Source of the DNA: a virus
IMG/VR virus record: IMGVR_UViG_3300042879_004656
Span: 1-22,753 of that record
Length of the DNA: 22,753 nt
Strand: one strand, 5' to 3'
Below, one piece after another: positions 215 to 4,658 of this stretch (the stretch's first letter is position 1; every line of letters begins with the position of its first letter). The notes beneath the pieces were generated by a model that was given only the letters and a program-made list of their open reading frames with translations, made no database searches and was not told the DNA's origin. Position numbers and translations under genes: made by a program.

Positions 215-1663
215 TTAGTTACCGTAAGTATTGCCGTGTAGACCGAGAACTCTGGTCAAACGGTAGTACTGGTTAGCACCTAGTTGTCCAATAATATCTG
301 ATCCGTAAGGAATGCCAGTATTGTTTAGGACGTAGGGGTTAGCAACCATACCGTAACGAGTCTTGAACGCGATACGGGGCTGGAAGGTGCCGGGATCAAT
401 AGCTCTCATCATCTGGAGAGGAACGTATGGGCAGTAGAAAATACCTGCGTCATATGGTGATTCTCCCTTATAACCTACACACATGAAGTTGACGCCCAAC
501 TGTGCATATGGGTCGATGTAGACACGGAGTTTGCCGTTCAAGAGACCAGCAAAGGTGCTACCAGTATCATCAACTTGAAGTTGTGTATTTAGTGCGGGTG
601 AGAGGTTGAGGAAGCCTGACATAGCGAGGGCGCTGGCGACATCGCTTGAAACGATGACGAAGTTACCCTTACCACGACGAGTTTCCTTGGCGATAGCATT
701 GCATTCACGCTCAATCTGGAAGACTAGACCACGGAATCTTTCAGCAGACCAACGACCGTCTGAGTCAAGATCTAGGTTGTAGCTACCAGCGCTGGTGATG
801 TCAGACTGTTGTGAACCATCGCGAGCAACGTAGTAAACGGTGCGAACGACTTCGCGGTTAATCTCAGCGAGAATTTCGGTGCTGAGAAGATTGGCGAGTT
901 CAGCTTCGGCATCTAGACCGTGAACAGCCTTGAGGTCTTGAGCGAGCTCAACAGTGTAACCTGCTGCCAAAGCACGGGTTTGTGCTGCGACGGCTACGCG
1001 GTCAATGGTGAATGACATCTTCTGCATGAAATCAGTTGATGTTGCAGCAGCATTGTAGTCCAAACCTTCGCCCTTTTGGGTGAGCATTGCACGCATAGAA
1101 CCGAGAGTGGTTGCGTTTTTACCGCTTGCAAAACCAGAAGCAGTAGCTCCGGGGTTTACACCAATGGTTGAAGGTGAAGTTCCACCAGCAGCAGCAAATC
1201 CACCAGAGGTTCCGCTGGAACCTGAGAAGCGAGGATCTGGCTCTTGGAACATAGCTTCAGTTGCAACGCCTGTTGGTGAAGCATCTGAATACTTGGCGCG
1301 CATGGCAAAGATTAGACCAGTTGGAGCGGTCATTGGCTGAACGCCGCAAATGTCATATGCCATTAGGTTGGGCATAGCACGACGAACAAGGCTGATTAGA
1401 ATTGGGTCATAACCCTTTACGCCGCCCTGTGCGGTTGCTAGTTGTGCAGAACCAACGCCTGATGTATCGTTGTTGAAAGCCATACCAGCGGGTACAGCTT
1501 CTGTGAGGTACTGTTCGCGCATGGCCTGTTCTTGATTCTCAAGAAGGACAGCGGTAACTTTTTTCTTCCATTCATCACCGATTGAGGGAAGAGCCTCGTG
1601 ATTTAGCACGGGATTCCATTTTTCGGAAAGAATGTCGTATGGGGTTTCGTCTCTAAAGCTCAT
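215..1663 (-). CDS. gp23: Major capsid protein (T4 gp23 family)
   Basis: This is the precursor of the hexameric major head subunit; 482 aa, against about 520 in T4. Position next to scaffold gp22 and protease gp21, in T4 gene order, supports the call. Residues 53-56 read LTE|A, the (L/I)-x-E|(A/G/S) cleavage signature of the T4 prohead protease, so the mature chain should begin near Ala56, as in T4 where an N-terminal propeptide is removed. A Gly/Ser/Ala-rich segment (about residues 146-180) probably lies in a surface loop. The ATG has a strong Shine-Dalgarno (AGGAGA, minus strand, 1674-1679) with a 10-nt spacer and a CTAAATA box at 1694-1700. The gene is clearly richer in GC than its neighbours (34 of 60 bases in 601-660), which fits codon selection for very high expression. 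Confidence 0.97.
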   Translation of the reverse strand: MSFRDETPYDILSEKWNPVLNHEALPSIGDEWKKKVTAVLLENQEQAMREQYLTEAVPAGMAFNNDTSGVGSAQLATAQGGVKGYDPILISLVRRAMPNLMAYDICGVQPMTAPTGLIFAMRAKYSDASPTGVATEAMFQEPDPRFSGSSGTSGGFAAAGGTSPSTIGVNPGATASGFASGKNATTLGSMRAMLTQKGEGLDYNAAATSTDFMQKMSFTIDRVAVAAQTRALAAGYTVELAQDLKAVHGLDAEAELANLLSTEILAEINREVVRTVYYVARDGSQQSDITSAGSYNLDLDSDGRWSAERFRGLVFQIERECNAIAKETRRGKGNFVIVSSDVASALAMSGFLNLSPALNTQLQVDDTGSTFAGLLNGKLRVYIDPYAQLGVNFMCVGYKGESPYDAGIFYCPYVPLQMMRAIDPGTFQPRIAFKTRYGMVANPYVLNNTGIPYGSDIIGQLGANQYYRLTRVLGLHGNTYGN

Positions 1664-1706: not shown

Positions 1707-2705
1707 TTAAAGTTTCTTTGCCAGCCGGGTCAAGCTGTTTGCGTAGCTCTCTACTAGAGTGGTTGGTACGCTTGCAGGCTTGCTGAATGTCAATTCCGGA
1801 TCTGGCTGCTCAGGAACTGCGACTTTCGACCCAAGGTAGTGTTCCTTGAGTGTCAATAGTTTGGTCTTGTACTCGTCAGAAGTTGAGAACTCAATGTTCT
1901 CAATTAGTGAAGCTAATTTTTCAACTTGAGTATCTGCAAGATCCTTTGTTTCGGCAACAAAGATTCCAGCACACTCAGTAATAAGAAGTTGCTTCTTGAG
2001 TTCGATATTTTCATGAAGTACATCGTTTAGATCATTCTGAAGGCTTCCAGCTTGTTCGTATAGGCCATCAAGAACGTTGTACTTCTCAGCGGGAACATCA
2101 ATGTAATGCATTTCAAAGAGCTTCTTAAGGCCCGTGATGAAATTTTCTGCCAAGGTGGATTTGATTCCGGTTTCAACTGCAAGCTTGTTGTCTTGCATCC
2201 ATTCCTCAACAACATAATCTAGGTAATCATCAATTTTTTCTGTGAGGGTCATGGTAACTTCACCGAGCTTGGATTCAAACTCTTCCTGAAGTGTTGGTGC
2301 GATTTCTTCTGCTACAGCCTTTAGCTTTTGATCGACAGCTGCTTCAAAGAGTGTTTTAACTTGTACAAAGAATTCTTCTGAGAGTTGGACATCACCAACC
2401 AAAGAACGAAGGCTTTGTTCGAATTCTACGGCTTCTTTCATTTCTTTTTCCTCATCTTCTTCGTACTCTTCTTCAGGCTCTTCTTCAGCCTGTTGAACGG
2501 GAGCAGCAGTCATTGGCATTGTTCCTTTGGCTGCGAGAGTGGCTTGGTTCATTTGGGCAGTTCCGGGTTGAGCAACAGGCTGAGGGATCATATTTGTGGC
2601 CCCATTAGCTGCCATTGCTCCCTTGCCAGTTACATCATGAACTGGATTGCCAACATTTTCCTTTATGATATTCATTAGGTATTCTTGTTTCAGTTTGTCG
2701 CTCAT
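1707..2705 (-). CDS. gp22: Prohead core scaffolding protein (T4 gp22 family)
   Basis: This 332-aa protein lies immediately upstream of the capsid gene, the place of gp22, the main internal scaffold that T4 gp21 degrades after assembly. It has a Gln/Ala/Met/Pro-rich low-complexity N-terminal part (about 25-72), a dense acidic run (73-90), long helical and coiled-coil stretches (about 100-290) and a basic, helical C-terminus ending RLAKKL. Several sites fit the protease signature, including LFE|A (119-122), LVE|S (317-320) and the looser ITE|C (242-245). That matches a protein cut into peptides. The start is supported by an AAGGA Shine-Dalgarno and by a CTAAATA box at 2728-2734. Overall sequence conservation in this family is low, so the call rests on position, composition and cleavage sites. 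Confidence 0.9.
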   Translation of the reverse strand: MSDKLKQEYLMNIIKENVGNPVHDVTGKGAMAANGATNMIPQPVAQPGTAQMNQATLAAKGTMPMTAAPVQQAEEEPEEEYEEDEEKEMKEAVEFEQSLRSLVGDVQLSEEFFVQVKTLFEAAVDQKLKAVAEEIAPTLQEEFESKLGEVTMTLTEKIDDYLDYVVEEWMQDNKLAVETGIKSTLAENFITGLKKLFEMHYIDVPAEKYNVLDGLYEQAGSLQNDLNDVLHENIELKKQLLITECAGIFVAETKDLADTQVEKLASLIENIEFSTSDEYKTKLLTLKEHYLGSKVAVPEQPDPELTFSKPASVPTTLVESYANSLTRLAKKL

Positions 2706-2786: not shown

Positions 2787-3302
2787 TCAGACTCTTACCA
2801 GTATATTTTTTATAGTGGTTAAAAGGTCATCTTTGGGGTGCATAGACGGTGTCTTCACACCCAAATTTTTGTAATAATTGTCAACATTAGTCATGCTTCT
2901 AACGGCAGTTTGTTGACGGCGAACTTCTTCTTTTGCTTTCTCGGGAGCACTAATTACATCAGCTAGTCCTCTACCGATCAATGCTCCGGCTACACCACCA
3001 GCACCAACCATAGCTTTGTATGGTCCGGTAGTTAGTGCAGCAATTCCTACAGGAAGTTTACCATATCCTTCTTTGCCCATTACCGAAGGATCAATCAGAG
3101 TGGATTTTGCTGGGCCTTCTCCGGCCTTCATTGGGCCTTCATCAACTTCGCCAGATTCTTCTTTTCTCTTTTTTTGCCTTTCAGCAGCTTTATCCTGCAT
3201 TGCACTAACAACTGGAGAAGGTGGTCCAAAGGGCTCAGAACCCTGACCGAAGCCACCAGCTTCAGCAATGTAAGAAAGCATTTTTAAAGAAGATTTGTTC
3301 AT
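2787..3302 (-). CDS. Putative internal head protein with capsid-targeting and cleavage sequence
   Basis: This 171-aa protein has no family I can name. Its N-terminus reads MNKSSLKMLSYIAEAGG. Residues 12-15 (IAE|A) fit the gp21 cleavage signature, and the whole leader resembles the capsid-targeting sequence of T4 internal proteins and Alt (MKTYQEFIAE, cut before Ala). The predicted mature chain starts at Ala15. A Pro/Gly-rich stretch (17-31) is followed by a charged, basic stretch (38-48), a Gly/Ala-rich hydrophobic region (about 84-118) that could insert in a membrane, and a basic helical tail. Its ATG overlaps the gp21 stop by 4 nt (ATGA), so it is co-expressed with the protease that would process it. 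I infer a protein packaged in the prohead core and perhaps ejected with the DNA. It could instead be a minor scaffold component. Confidence 0.6.
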   Translation of the reverse strand: MNKSSLKMLSYIAEAGGFGQGSEPFGPPSPVVSAMQDKAAERQKKRKEESGEVDEGPMKAGEGPAKSTLIDPSVMGKEGYGKLPVGIAALTTGPYKAMVGAGGVAGALIGRGLADVISAPEKAKEEVRRQQTAVRSMTNVDNYYKNLGVKTPSMHPKDDLLTTIKNILVRV

Positions 3303-3943
3303 ATATTATTCAAAAAGTGCTTGAATACCTTTATCATGTTTTCTTCAAGTTTTCGTGGAGAACTTTTCTTGATGATATTATGATAATTTTCAATTTCTCT
3401 TGCTTTCAAAATTCCGTTGTCCCAAACCCATTCTTTTCCTTCCATGATTCCATTTACGAAAGCATTTGGAGCTGAAGGGTCCGCTACAATGTCAATTGCA
3501 GCAAGCATAAAGTCCTCTTGGACTTCTTGATAACCATTCTTTGCTCTCAGTGATCCCATACCTCTGCTGGAAACACCAAGATTTGCACCTTCATTGATCA
3601 AGTTTTTAACAATCTCTCCCATTGGTGTGCTGAGAATCTTGGCACGACCGATCACATCTTTGCCAGACTCATTCAAGCTTTTTACCATGTGAGATACACG
3701 ATCAAGGTTTACTGTTGGGCCAGATGGGTGGTTTAACTCACCCAAAGCTCTTCCTTTTTCAACATATTCCTTGATGTAACGTTTGCATTCTTTGATTAAT
3801 GTTGGTGTGGGATATACACGACCATTACGATTTTTTACTTCGCTTTGAAGAAAAACACCTTCAATGTAATAATCCTTACCACCGTTTCCGTTGTCTTCTT
3901 TGATGTACTTTACTTCTTCTACGAGTTCGGTGATAAGTTTCAT
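3299..3943 (-). CDS. gp21: Prohead core protease (T4 gp21 family)
   Basis: Serine protease that matures the head by cutting scaffold, core proteins and capsid precursors inside the prohead. The 214-aa length fits the family. Catalytic elements are visible in the usual order: His72 in GELNHPSGP, the GVSSRG motif with Ser125 and Ser126 (one of them the nucleophile), and DIVADPSAPNAF with Asp155. This is the herpesvirus-assemblin-like fold used by T4 gp21. The segment around residues 35-45 (SEVKNRNGRVYP) is also typical of the family. It sits between the small core proteins and the putative internal protein. It is 2 nt downstream of the 96-aa core protein and overlaps the following gene by ATGA, so it is translated as part of the portal-core operon. 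The protein was probably made as a zymogen and self-cleaved, as is known for T4. Confidence 0.95.
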   Translation of the reverse strand: MKLITELVEEVKYIKEDNGNGGKDYYIEGVFLQSEVKNRNGRVYPTPTLIKECKRYIKEYVEKGRALGELNHPSGPTVNLDRVSHMVKSLNESGKDVIGRAKILSTPMGEIVKNLINEGANLGVSSRGMGSLRAKNGYQEVQEDFMLAAIDIVADPSAPNAFVNGIMEGKEWVWDNGILKAREIENYHNIIKKSSPRKLEENMIKVFKHFLNNI

Positions 3944-3945
3944 GT

Positions 3946-4236
3946 TCAGTAGGCTCCGTAGCTGTGTTTTACTTTGTCGCCGCCTGTTTGTTTAGCCTTT
4001 GGAGTCTCTTCGGAAACCTCGGGCTGTTCTTCAGTTTCTTCGGTATCTTCTGCAGCAGTTACTTCTTCTCCAGCTTCTTCAGCCTCTGAAAGACGGAAAA
4101 GCCCAGAAGCTGCATTCTTATACTCGCTGTCCAAACGAACAGAAAGTTTTTCAAGAAGAACCTTGTTTACAATCTGACGAAAATCAACAGCATTTTCGTT
4201 TACGATTGATTCGATTAATTTAGTTTTTTCGGTCAT
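3946..4236 (-). CDS. Acidic prohead core protein (T4 gp67-like)
   Basis: This small 96-aa protein has a helical N-terminal half (residues 1-48). The Glu/Asp/Thr-rich tail (51-78) looks like the acidic cargo peptide of T4 gp67. A clear protease site LSE|A spans residues 49-52, exactly where the acidic tail begins, so cleavage would release the acidic peptide into the head. In T4, gp67 and gp68 lie between portal gp20 and protease gp21, and this gene is in that interval. Its start overlaps the stop of the preceding gene by 4 nt (ATGA), which suggests translational coupling. Sequence identity to T4 gp67 cannot be shown by eye; the assignment rests on synteny, size, acidity and the cleavage site. 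Confidence 0.72.
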   Translation of the reverse strand: MTEKTKLIESIVNENAVDFRQIVNKVLLEKLSVRLDSEYKNAASGLFRLSEAEEAGEEVTAAEDTEETEEQPEVSEETPKAKQTGGDKVKHSYGAY

Positions 4237-4658
4237 GTAAGTAATCCTTTAGTATTTTTTGCAAACTTAATTGTCTCTCTCAAAAAATTCGGTGTTTCAA
4301 AAATATTTTTCGCTAAGTGCTTTTGATTTTTCTCATTTAACTGATCAAATAAAAGCTTAAGCGGGGCTATTTCTGATTCTGAAATATTTATAATTGAACC
4401 ATTTTTAAAGTAAATTTTTGCCTTTTTATTTTTATGAATTTCAGTTAAAAGATTTATTAATTTTTTAATATCTTCGTTTTCATTTACACTTTTATTCAAT
4501 AAAGATGTTGTCAAATTTTCAAAAATTTTAACAGATATGCTTTTGCATAGATCTTCTTTTCTGGTGCTCAATTCTTGTTTTAGTCCAGCAAAAAATAAAT
4601 CTTCTTCGCCTTCCATCAAATTTTCAACTAATTTATGAACTCTCTGTGGACTCATCAT
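4233..4658 (-). CDS. Prohead core protein (T4 gp68 position)
   Basis: This 141-aa protein sits between the portal and the gp67-like gene, where T4 has its two small core proteins (there in the order 67-68, downstream of gp20). It starts MM and overlaps the portal stop by ATGA. Residues 14-17 (LME|G) fit the prohead protease signature, so the first 16 residues may be removed. The rest is Lys/Glu-rich and helical, with a short beta-like segment (KAKIYFKNGS, about 78-87) followed by a helical C-terminus. It is strongly AT-rich. I infer a core or scaffold role from place and cleavage site only; no catalytic motif is visible. Confidence 0.58.
   Translation of the reverse strand: MMSPQRVHKLVENLMEGEEDLFFAGLKQELSTRKEDLCKSISVKIFENLTTSLLNKSVNENEDIKKLINLLTEIHKNKKAKIYFKNGSIINISESEIAPLKLLFDQLNEKNQKHLAKNIFETPNFLRETIKFAKNTKGLLT

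Follow-up and report, generated by a model that had tools for sequence, protein, structure and literature searches.

We propose that the 171-aa protein encoded between the genes for the prohead protease gp21 and the scaffold gp22 in this viral DNA is an internal head protein in the style of T4, targeted to the head by a leader, cut by gp21, surviving maturation and ejected as a host-facing cargo; judging from its sequence and from the T4 precedent, we consider this reading as a whole quite probable. Residues 1-14 would act as a capsid-targeting sequence (CTS) that puts the precursor into the prohead core, and gp21 would cut after Glu14 during maturation, at Y-I-A-E/A (a slash marks a cut), as the invariance of the site suggests. 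The mature protein of about 157 residues, nearly free of other gp21 sites, would then be spared when gp22 and the gp67/68-like proteins are degraded, stay with the packaged DNA and, by analogy with T4, be delivered into the host at infection, where it may serve as a counter-defence or takeover cargo. These steps differ in strength. The data argue strongly for packaging and cleavage by gp21, and ejection into the host is plausible on the T4 analogy; a counter-defence role, the weakest step, stands at roughly even odds, given the analogies with T4 IPI* (PMC3012670) and P1 Dar (PMC9024508) and the fast divergence of the protein.

The window, by which we mean the whole 22.7-kb viral fragment analysed, carries a T4-type head module on its minus strand: portal gp20 comes first, followed by a 141-aa protein, a 96-aa protein, protease gp21 and the 171-aa protein, then scaffold gp22 and lastly capsid gp23. 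ORF, Pfam and PHROG checks bear out the initial annotation as to the reading frame (2787..3302, minus strand, ATG start, 171 aa) and its location between gp21 and gp22, a position that we call the slot. The protein comprises the leader, a hypervariable mature part and a conserved C-terminal motif. Both the protease (3299..3943, minus strand; Peptidase_S77 PF03420, E 8.6e-37; phrog_207) and a gp22-type core (1707..2705, minus strand; T4_CASP PF25623, E 1.8e-58; phrog_237) are encoded in the window. At two other loci (L138:4683-8285 and L160:4683-8363) the gp22 scaffold domain ends a protein of about 1200 aa that has an N-terminal extension of about 900 aa. The 4-nt overlap with the protease gene that had been described is present as an ATGA at 3299..3302 (minus strand), combining the gp21 stop with the slot-gene start, and is likely to couple translation of the slot gene to that of gp21; the same -3 offset is common to most slot genes, every member of the window's family included.

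The family is known from uncultured phages. The 171-aa protein has no match above threshold in Pfam, PHROGs or PDB sequences and none in 50,697 phage records, where no isolate carries the family, and a family profile found no relative in GTDB genomes. The nearest cultured relatives are cyanophages, with gp21 about 63% and gp23 about 55% identical; the photosystem gene psbA, which would have hinted at a cyanobacterial host, was not found in two long relatives, which are themselves fragments. T4 and S-CAM1 have nothing between genes 21 and 22. Among five further cultured T4-like phages checked, a slot gene occurs in the freshwater cyanophage S-CRM01 only, and it lacks the leader. That gene (L258:3174-5084) is metallopeptidase-like and bears the annotation "pre-peptidase C-terminal domain protein".

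The N-terminus of the 171-aa protein reads MNKSSLKMLSYIAE/AGG, with the predicted leader at 3261..3302 and the predicted cut, E14/A15, between bases 3261 and 3260 (both minus strand); IAE14/A fits the published specificity of gp21, which cuts after L/I-X-E (PMC9026906). Cleavage there would leave Ala15-Lys38, AGGFGQGSEPFGPPSPVVSAMQDK, as the predicted semi-tryptic peptide. The initial annotation had pointed to homologues in the gp21-gp22 slot as the place to look for conservation of this site, and a profile search returned 19 IMG/VR loci in which the leader ends in Y-I-[ASVN]-E/A throughout. The 13 distinct homologues have 10 distinct 15-residue leaders, and all 13 keep Y11, I12, E14 and A15, with A, S, N or V at residue 13. 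Fixed P3, P1 and P1' positions around a free P2 are what a protease site should show, and the conservation of leader and cut motif is beyond chance. Homologues that keep the body without the site were sought among the 19 loci, and none was found.

Related sites occur on two other head proteins. The predicted propeptide of gp23 (215..1663, minus strand) ends in Y-L-T-E55/A, and residues 13-16 of gp21 read Y-I-K-E (3896-3907), possibly a self-processing or targeting site; all ten family-A phages have Y-I-[KQE]-E in gp21, and the same ten keep Q-Y-L-x-E at the end of the gp23 propeptide. Taken with the slot leader, these sites make a P4 Tyr common to three head proteins. In T4 the P4 residue is Phe in gp23 and in IPII/IPIII.

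The leader is also found on a protein that is otherwise unrelated. Three occurrences of a DNA pattern encoding [YF]-I-x-E-A were found in the 108 kb of one relative (G001). One lies in the slot gene, a second within another gene, near residue 24, and the third opens a 795-aa protein (L204:4667-7054, in G001:C1) that is unrelated to the slot protein. The leader of this protein, MDFKHQLLKYIAE/A, with LLKYIAE/A at its end, is similar to the slot leaders across LL-x-Y-I-x-E-A, and four further contigs retain it. The last 80 residues of the protein match phrog_4590 and form a putative HNH nuclease domain by sequence and structure-model comparison: the Pfam HNH match (E 0.0055) is below the curated cut-off, and the top Foldseek hits, though weak in E-value, are for the most part HNH nucleases. 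Ten other relatives yielded no copy of the 795-aa protein, nor did the four contigs yield the slot family, all of these being fragments. A neighbouring Ala/Pro/Gly-rich protein of 1061 aa (L204:144-3329) starts with MKNFNQLVNE/S, near the T4 CTS in form, and its homologues in L206-L209 vary in length from 818 to 992 aa. Such leader-like starts occur in 1 of 39 ORFs in 39 kb of other DNA from two relatives.

These findings bear on the suspicion that the leader matches by chance only and that the 171-aa protein comes from an unrelated accessory gene inserted at a tolerant site. L/I-X-E is a short motif, which weighs against reading a leader into it, and the slot gene of S-CRM01, apparently unrelated, is without the motif. 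However, the site is invariant in 13 distinct homologues and recurs on a second protein, and slot N-termini are enriched in such sites: a gp21-type site lies within the first ~25 (to 27) residues in 15 of 19 slot N-termini, in 0 of 57 portals and in 8 of 299 other non-head ORFs, two of the eight being truncated gp21 ORFs, although kinship among the sequences makes these counts non-independent and inflates the significance. We regard coincidence as highly improbable.

Comparison with T4 supports a targeting leader but corrects the likeness first drawn. The start MKTYQEFIAE/A, which had been ascribed to the T4 internal proteins and Alt, is that of IPII and IPIII; IPI begins MKTFKEF...TITE/A and Alt begins MELITELFDE, so that the ascription to Alt was mistaken. 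Like the leaders of IPI, IPII and IPIII, that of the slot protein is short (14 residues, against 10-19 in T4) and ends in L/I-X-E/A, with an aromatic residue ahead of I/L as in IPII and IPIII, and in both systems divergent mature parts follow a conserved leader. The mature part, however, has no detectable sequence homology to IPI, IPII or IPIII (Pfam, PHROG and tblastn), and in T4 the ip genes are remote from gene 21, whereas here the gene overlaps it. T4 Alt is likewise packaged and injected, its propeptide removed by gp21 (PMC9026906), but it is a large ADP-ribosyltransferase, and in size the 795-aa protein of G001 comes closer to it. In P1, DarB/Dar carry an N-terminal capsid-targeting signal, are delivered with the DNA and act in anti-restriction (PMC9024508); phage, protease and signal all differ. 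The ejection proteins of phiKZ-like phages and SPN3US are inner head proteins whose N-terminal propeptides are processed by the head protease (PMC5694885), but at A-X-E or S/A/G-X-E sites, with propeptides often longer than 100 residues and no confirmed gp22-type scaffold (PMC5694885).

The T4 comparison also bears on the fate of the mature protein. It might be packaged and cut and yet retained in the virion, condensing DNA or lining the capsid. Mild basicity is shared by most of the homologues, and lysines mediate the DNA contacts of the T4 internal proteins (PMC3012670). The basic tail of the initial annotation amounts, in our analysis, to a mature part that is only mildly basic (+4), with homologues running from -1 to +11, and the near-neutral ones (L100 at +1 and L101 at -1) would be unsuited to condensing DNA. 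Because the leader-bearing internal proteins of T4 and Alt are in addition largely ejected (PMC9026906), we think retention unlikely and favour ejection.

Leader and body evolve separately. Body identity to the window protein is only about 30-38% in homologues. The leader has a mean pairwise identity of 64% and a pN/pS of 0.41, residues 18-65 and 81-128 have 30-40% identity and a pN/pS of 0.8-0.94, and the C-terminal motif at residues 129-148 (RQQTAVRSMTNVDNYYKNLG; 2859..2918, minus strand) has 80% mean pairwise identity and a pN/pS of 0.22, all of these pN/pS values being only indicative because synonymous sites are near saturation. D71, P72 and G76 are invariant in a DPSVMG motif (residues 71-76; 3075..3092, minus strand). 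That the C-terminal motif is more conserved than the leader suggests constraint on the role of part of the body, perhaps a structural one. As a whole, the slot protein is the fastest-changing member of the head module: its mean identity is 42%, whereas the two core proteins stand at 62-71%, gp22 at 77%, gp20 at 80%, and gp23 and gp21 at 86-87%. A body that diverges much faster than its head neighbours, together with the unrelated proteins found in the slots of relatives, points to a host-facing cargo and probably not to a structural part.

The distribution of gp21 sites points in the same direction. The window protein has a single L/I-x-E, in the leader, and none in the mature part; across the mature slot proteins of ten homologues, [LI]-x-E was observed 3 times against 8.5 expected (P = 0.024), the opposite of gp22, which has 14 gp21-type sites against 6.6 expected, and of the 141-aa core protein, which is enriched like gp22. 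Being depleted in gp21 sites, the mature part should survive maturation as the T4 internal proteins do. Membership of the gp67/gp68 type calls for multiple gp21 sites, and the slot protein, with one at the leader, was rejected as a member. A protein of that type, assisting in the building or sizing of the head as part of the prohead core or scaffold, destroyed by gp21 and with no role after infection, would nevertheless belong in a head operon, next to the scaffold and coupled to the protease, and the strong conservation of the C-terminal motif would suit it. Against this, the gp67/68 position is already filled in the window by two proteins, the acidic 96-aa (3946..4236, minus strand) and the 141-aa (4233..4658, minus strand) head-core proteins, both assigned by position and composition only; the mature slot protein is poor in the sites in which gp22 and the 141-aa protein are rich; its body is far more variable than every neighbour; and the gene is missing from most relatives, T4 and S-CAM1 included. 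We therefore consider a core role quite unlikely. An internal head protein with a targeting leader that gp21 removes, as first proposed, agrees with the invariant site, the variable cargo, the leader on a second protein and the scarcity of internal sites.

A role at the host membrane, also suggested at first, fares less well. Residues 84-118 (2949..3053, minus strand) are indeed Gly/Ala-rich (50% G+A in the best 30 residues), but their hydrophobicity is below transmembrane grade and is not conserved: the Kyte-Doolittle maximum over 21 residues is 1.41 in the window protein, the highest in the family, and 0.55-1.14 in homologues, against a usual transmembrane threshold of about 1.6 mean hydropathy. 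An ejection channel or pore component in the host membrane might use such a segment, and unrelated slot proteins have longer ones (54 uncharged residues in that of L006). However, the segment is the least conserved part of the protein, and a membrane role is unsupported because no transmembrane-grade segment is conserved; we hold it to be decidedly improbable. The AlphaFold model of the 171-aa protein is too poor (mean pLDDT 46) to inform this question or to support a comparison of folds.

The slot itself varies between relatives. L006, L008 and L011 share 85-88% gp21 identity with L009, and their slot proteins range from 174 to 515 aa, that of L011 having no detectable similarity to those of L006, L008 and L009. 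Slot leaders include MKIKLVNLIE/G, MKLQFKQLLNE/A and MKLSGLKQLVE/A, and in L202 and L203 a body related to that of L008 stands behind a different leader, MKLPINSLQTLVKE/A. The slot proteins of L006 (5145-6692, 515 aa) and L009 (3396-4910, 504 aa) have a second leader-like stretch in mid-protein, similar to the start of that of L008, which gives tandem sites (LIE10/G and MQE291/G in L006; LNE11/A and LQE333/V in L009). By their sequences these genes resemble two cargos fused into one precursor, and with two leaders in one gene, gp21 might cut a single precursor into two delivered proteins. The fit to the site is poor or partial in families L014/L052 and L007/L013, and the leader of L008 ends in LLEQ/A; the misfits of L014/L052, L007/L013 and S-CRM01 indicate that the leader rule is not universal. 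We raise tentatively, as a possibility more than an expectation, that the gp21-gp22 junction in this branch of uncultured T4-like phages is a dedicated cargo slot in which a fixed leader coupled to the protease stays while the cargo is swapped, that tandem-leader precursors are cut in two, and that larger leader-bearing proteins, one of them HNH-like, are injected as well.

At its core, then, the slot protein probably represents an uncultured family that is new but belongs to the known class of T4 internal proteins, and it is the cargo slot with its tandem-leader architecture that could be new. The finding would carry head-borne protein delivery beyond T4, where most work on it has been done, into a large group of uncultured phages, and it offers a rule for recognizing candidate injected proteins in metagenomes: a slot after gp21 whose product has [LI]-x-E/[AGS] within about 25 residues. 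The slot proteins are candidates for new counter-defence functions, and their leaders could act as packaging tags.
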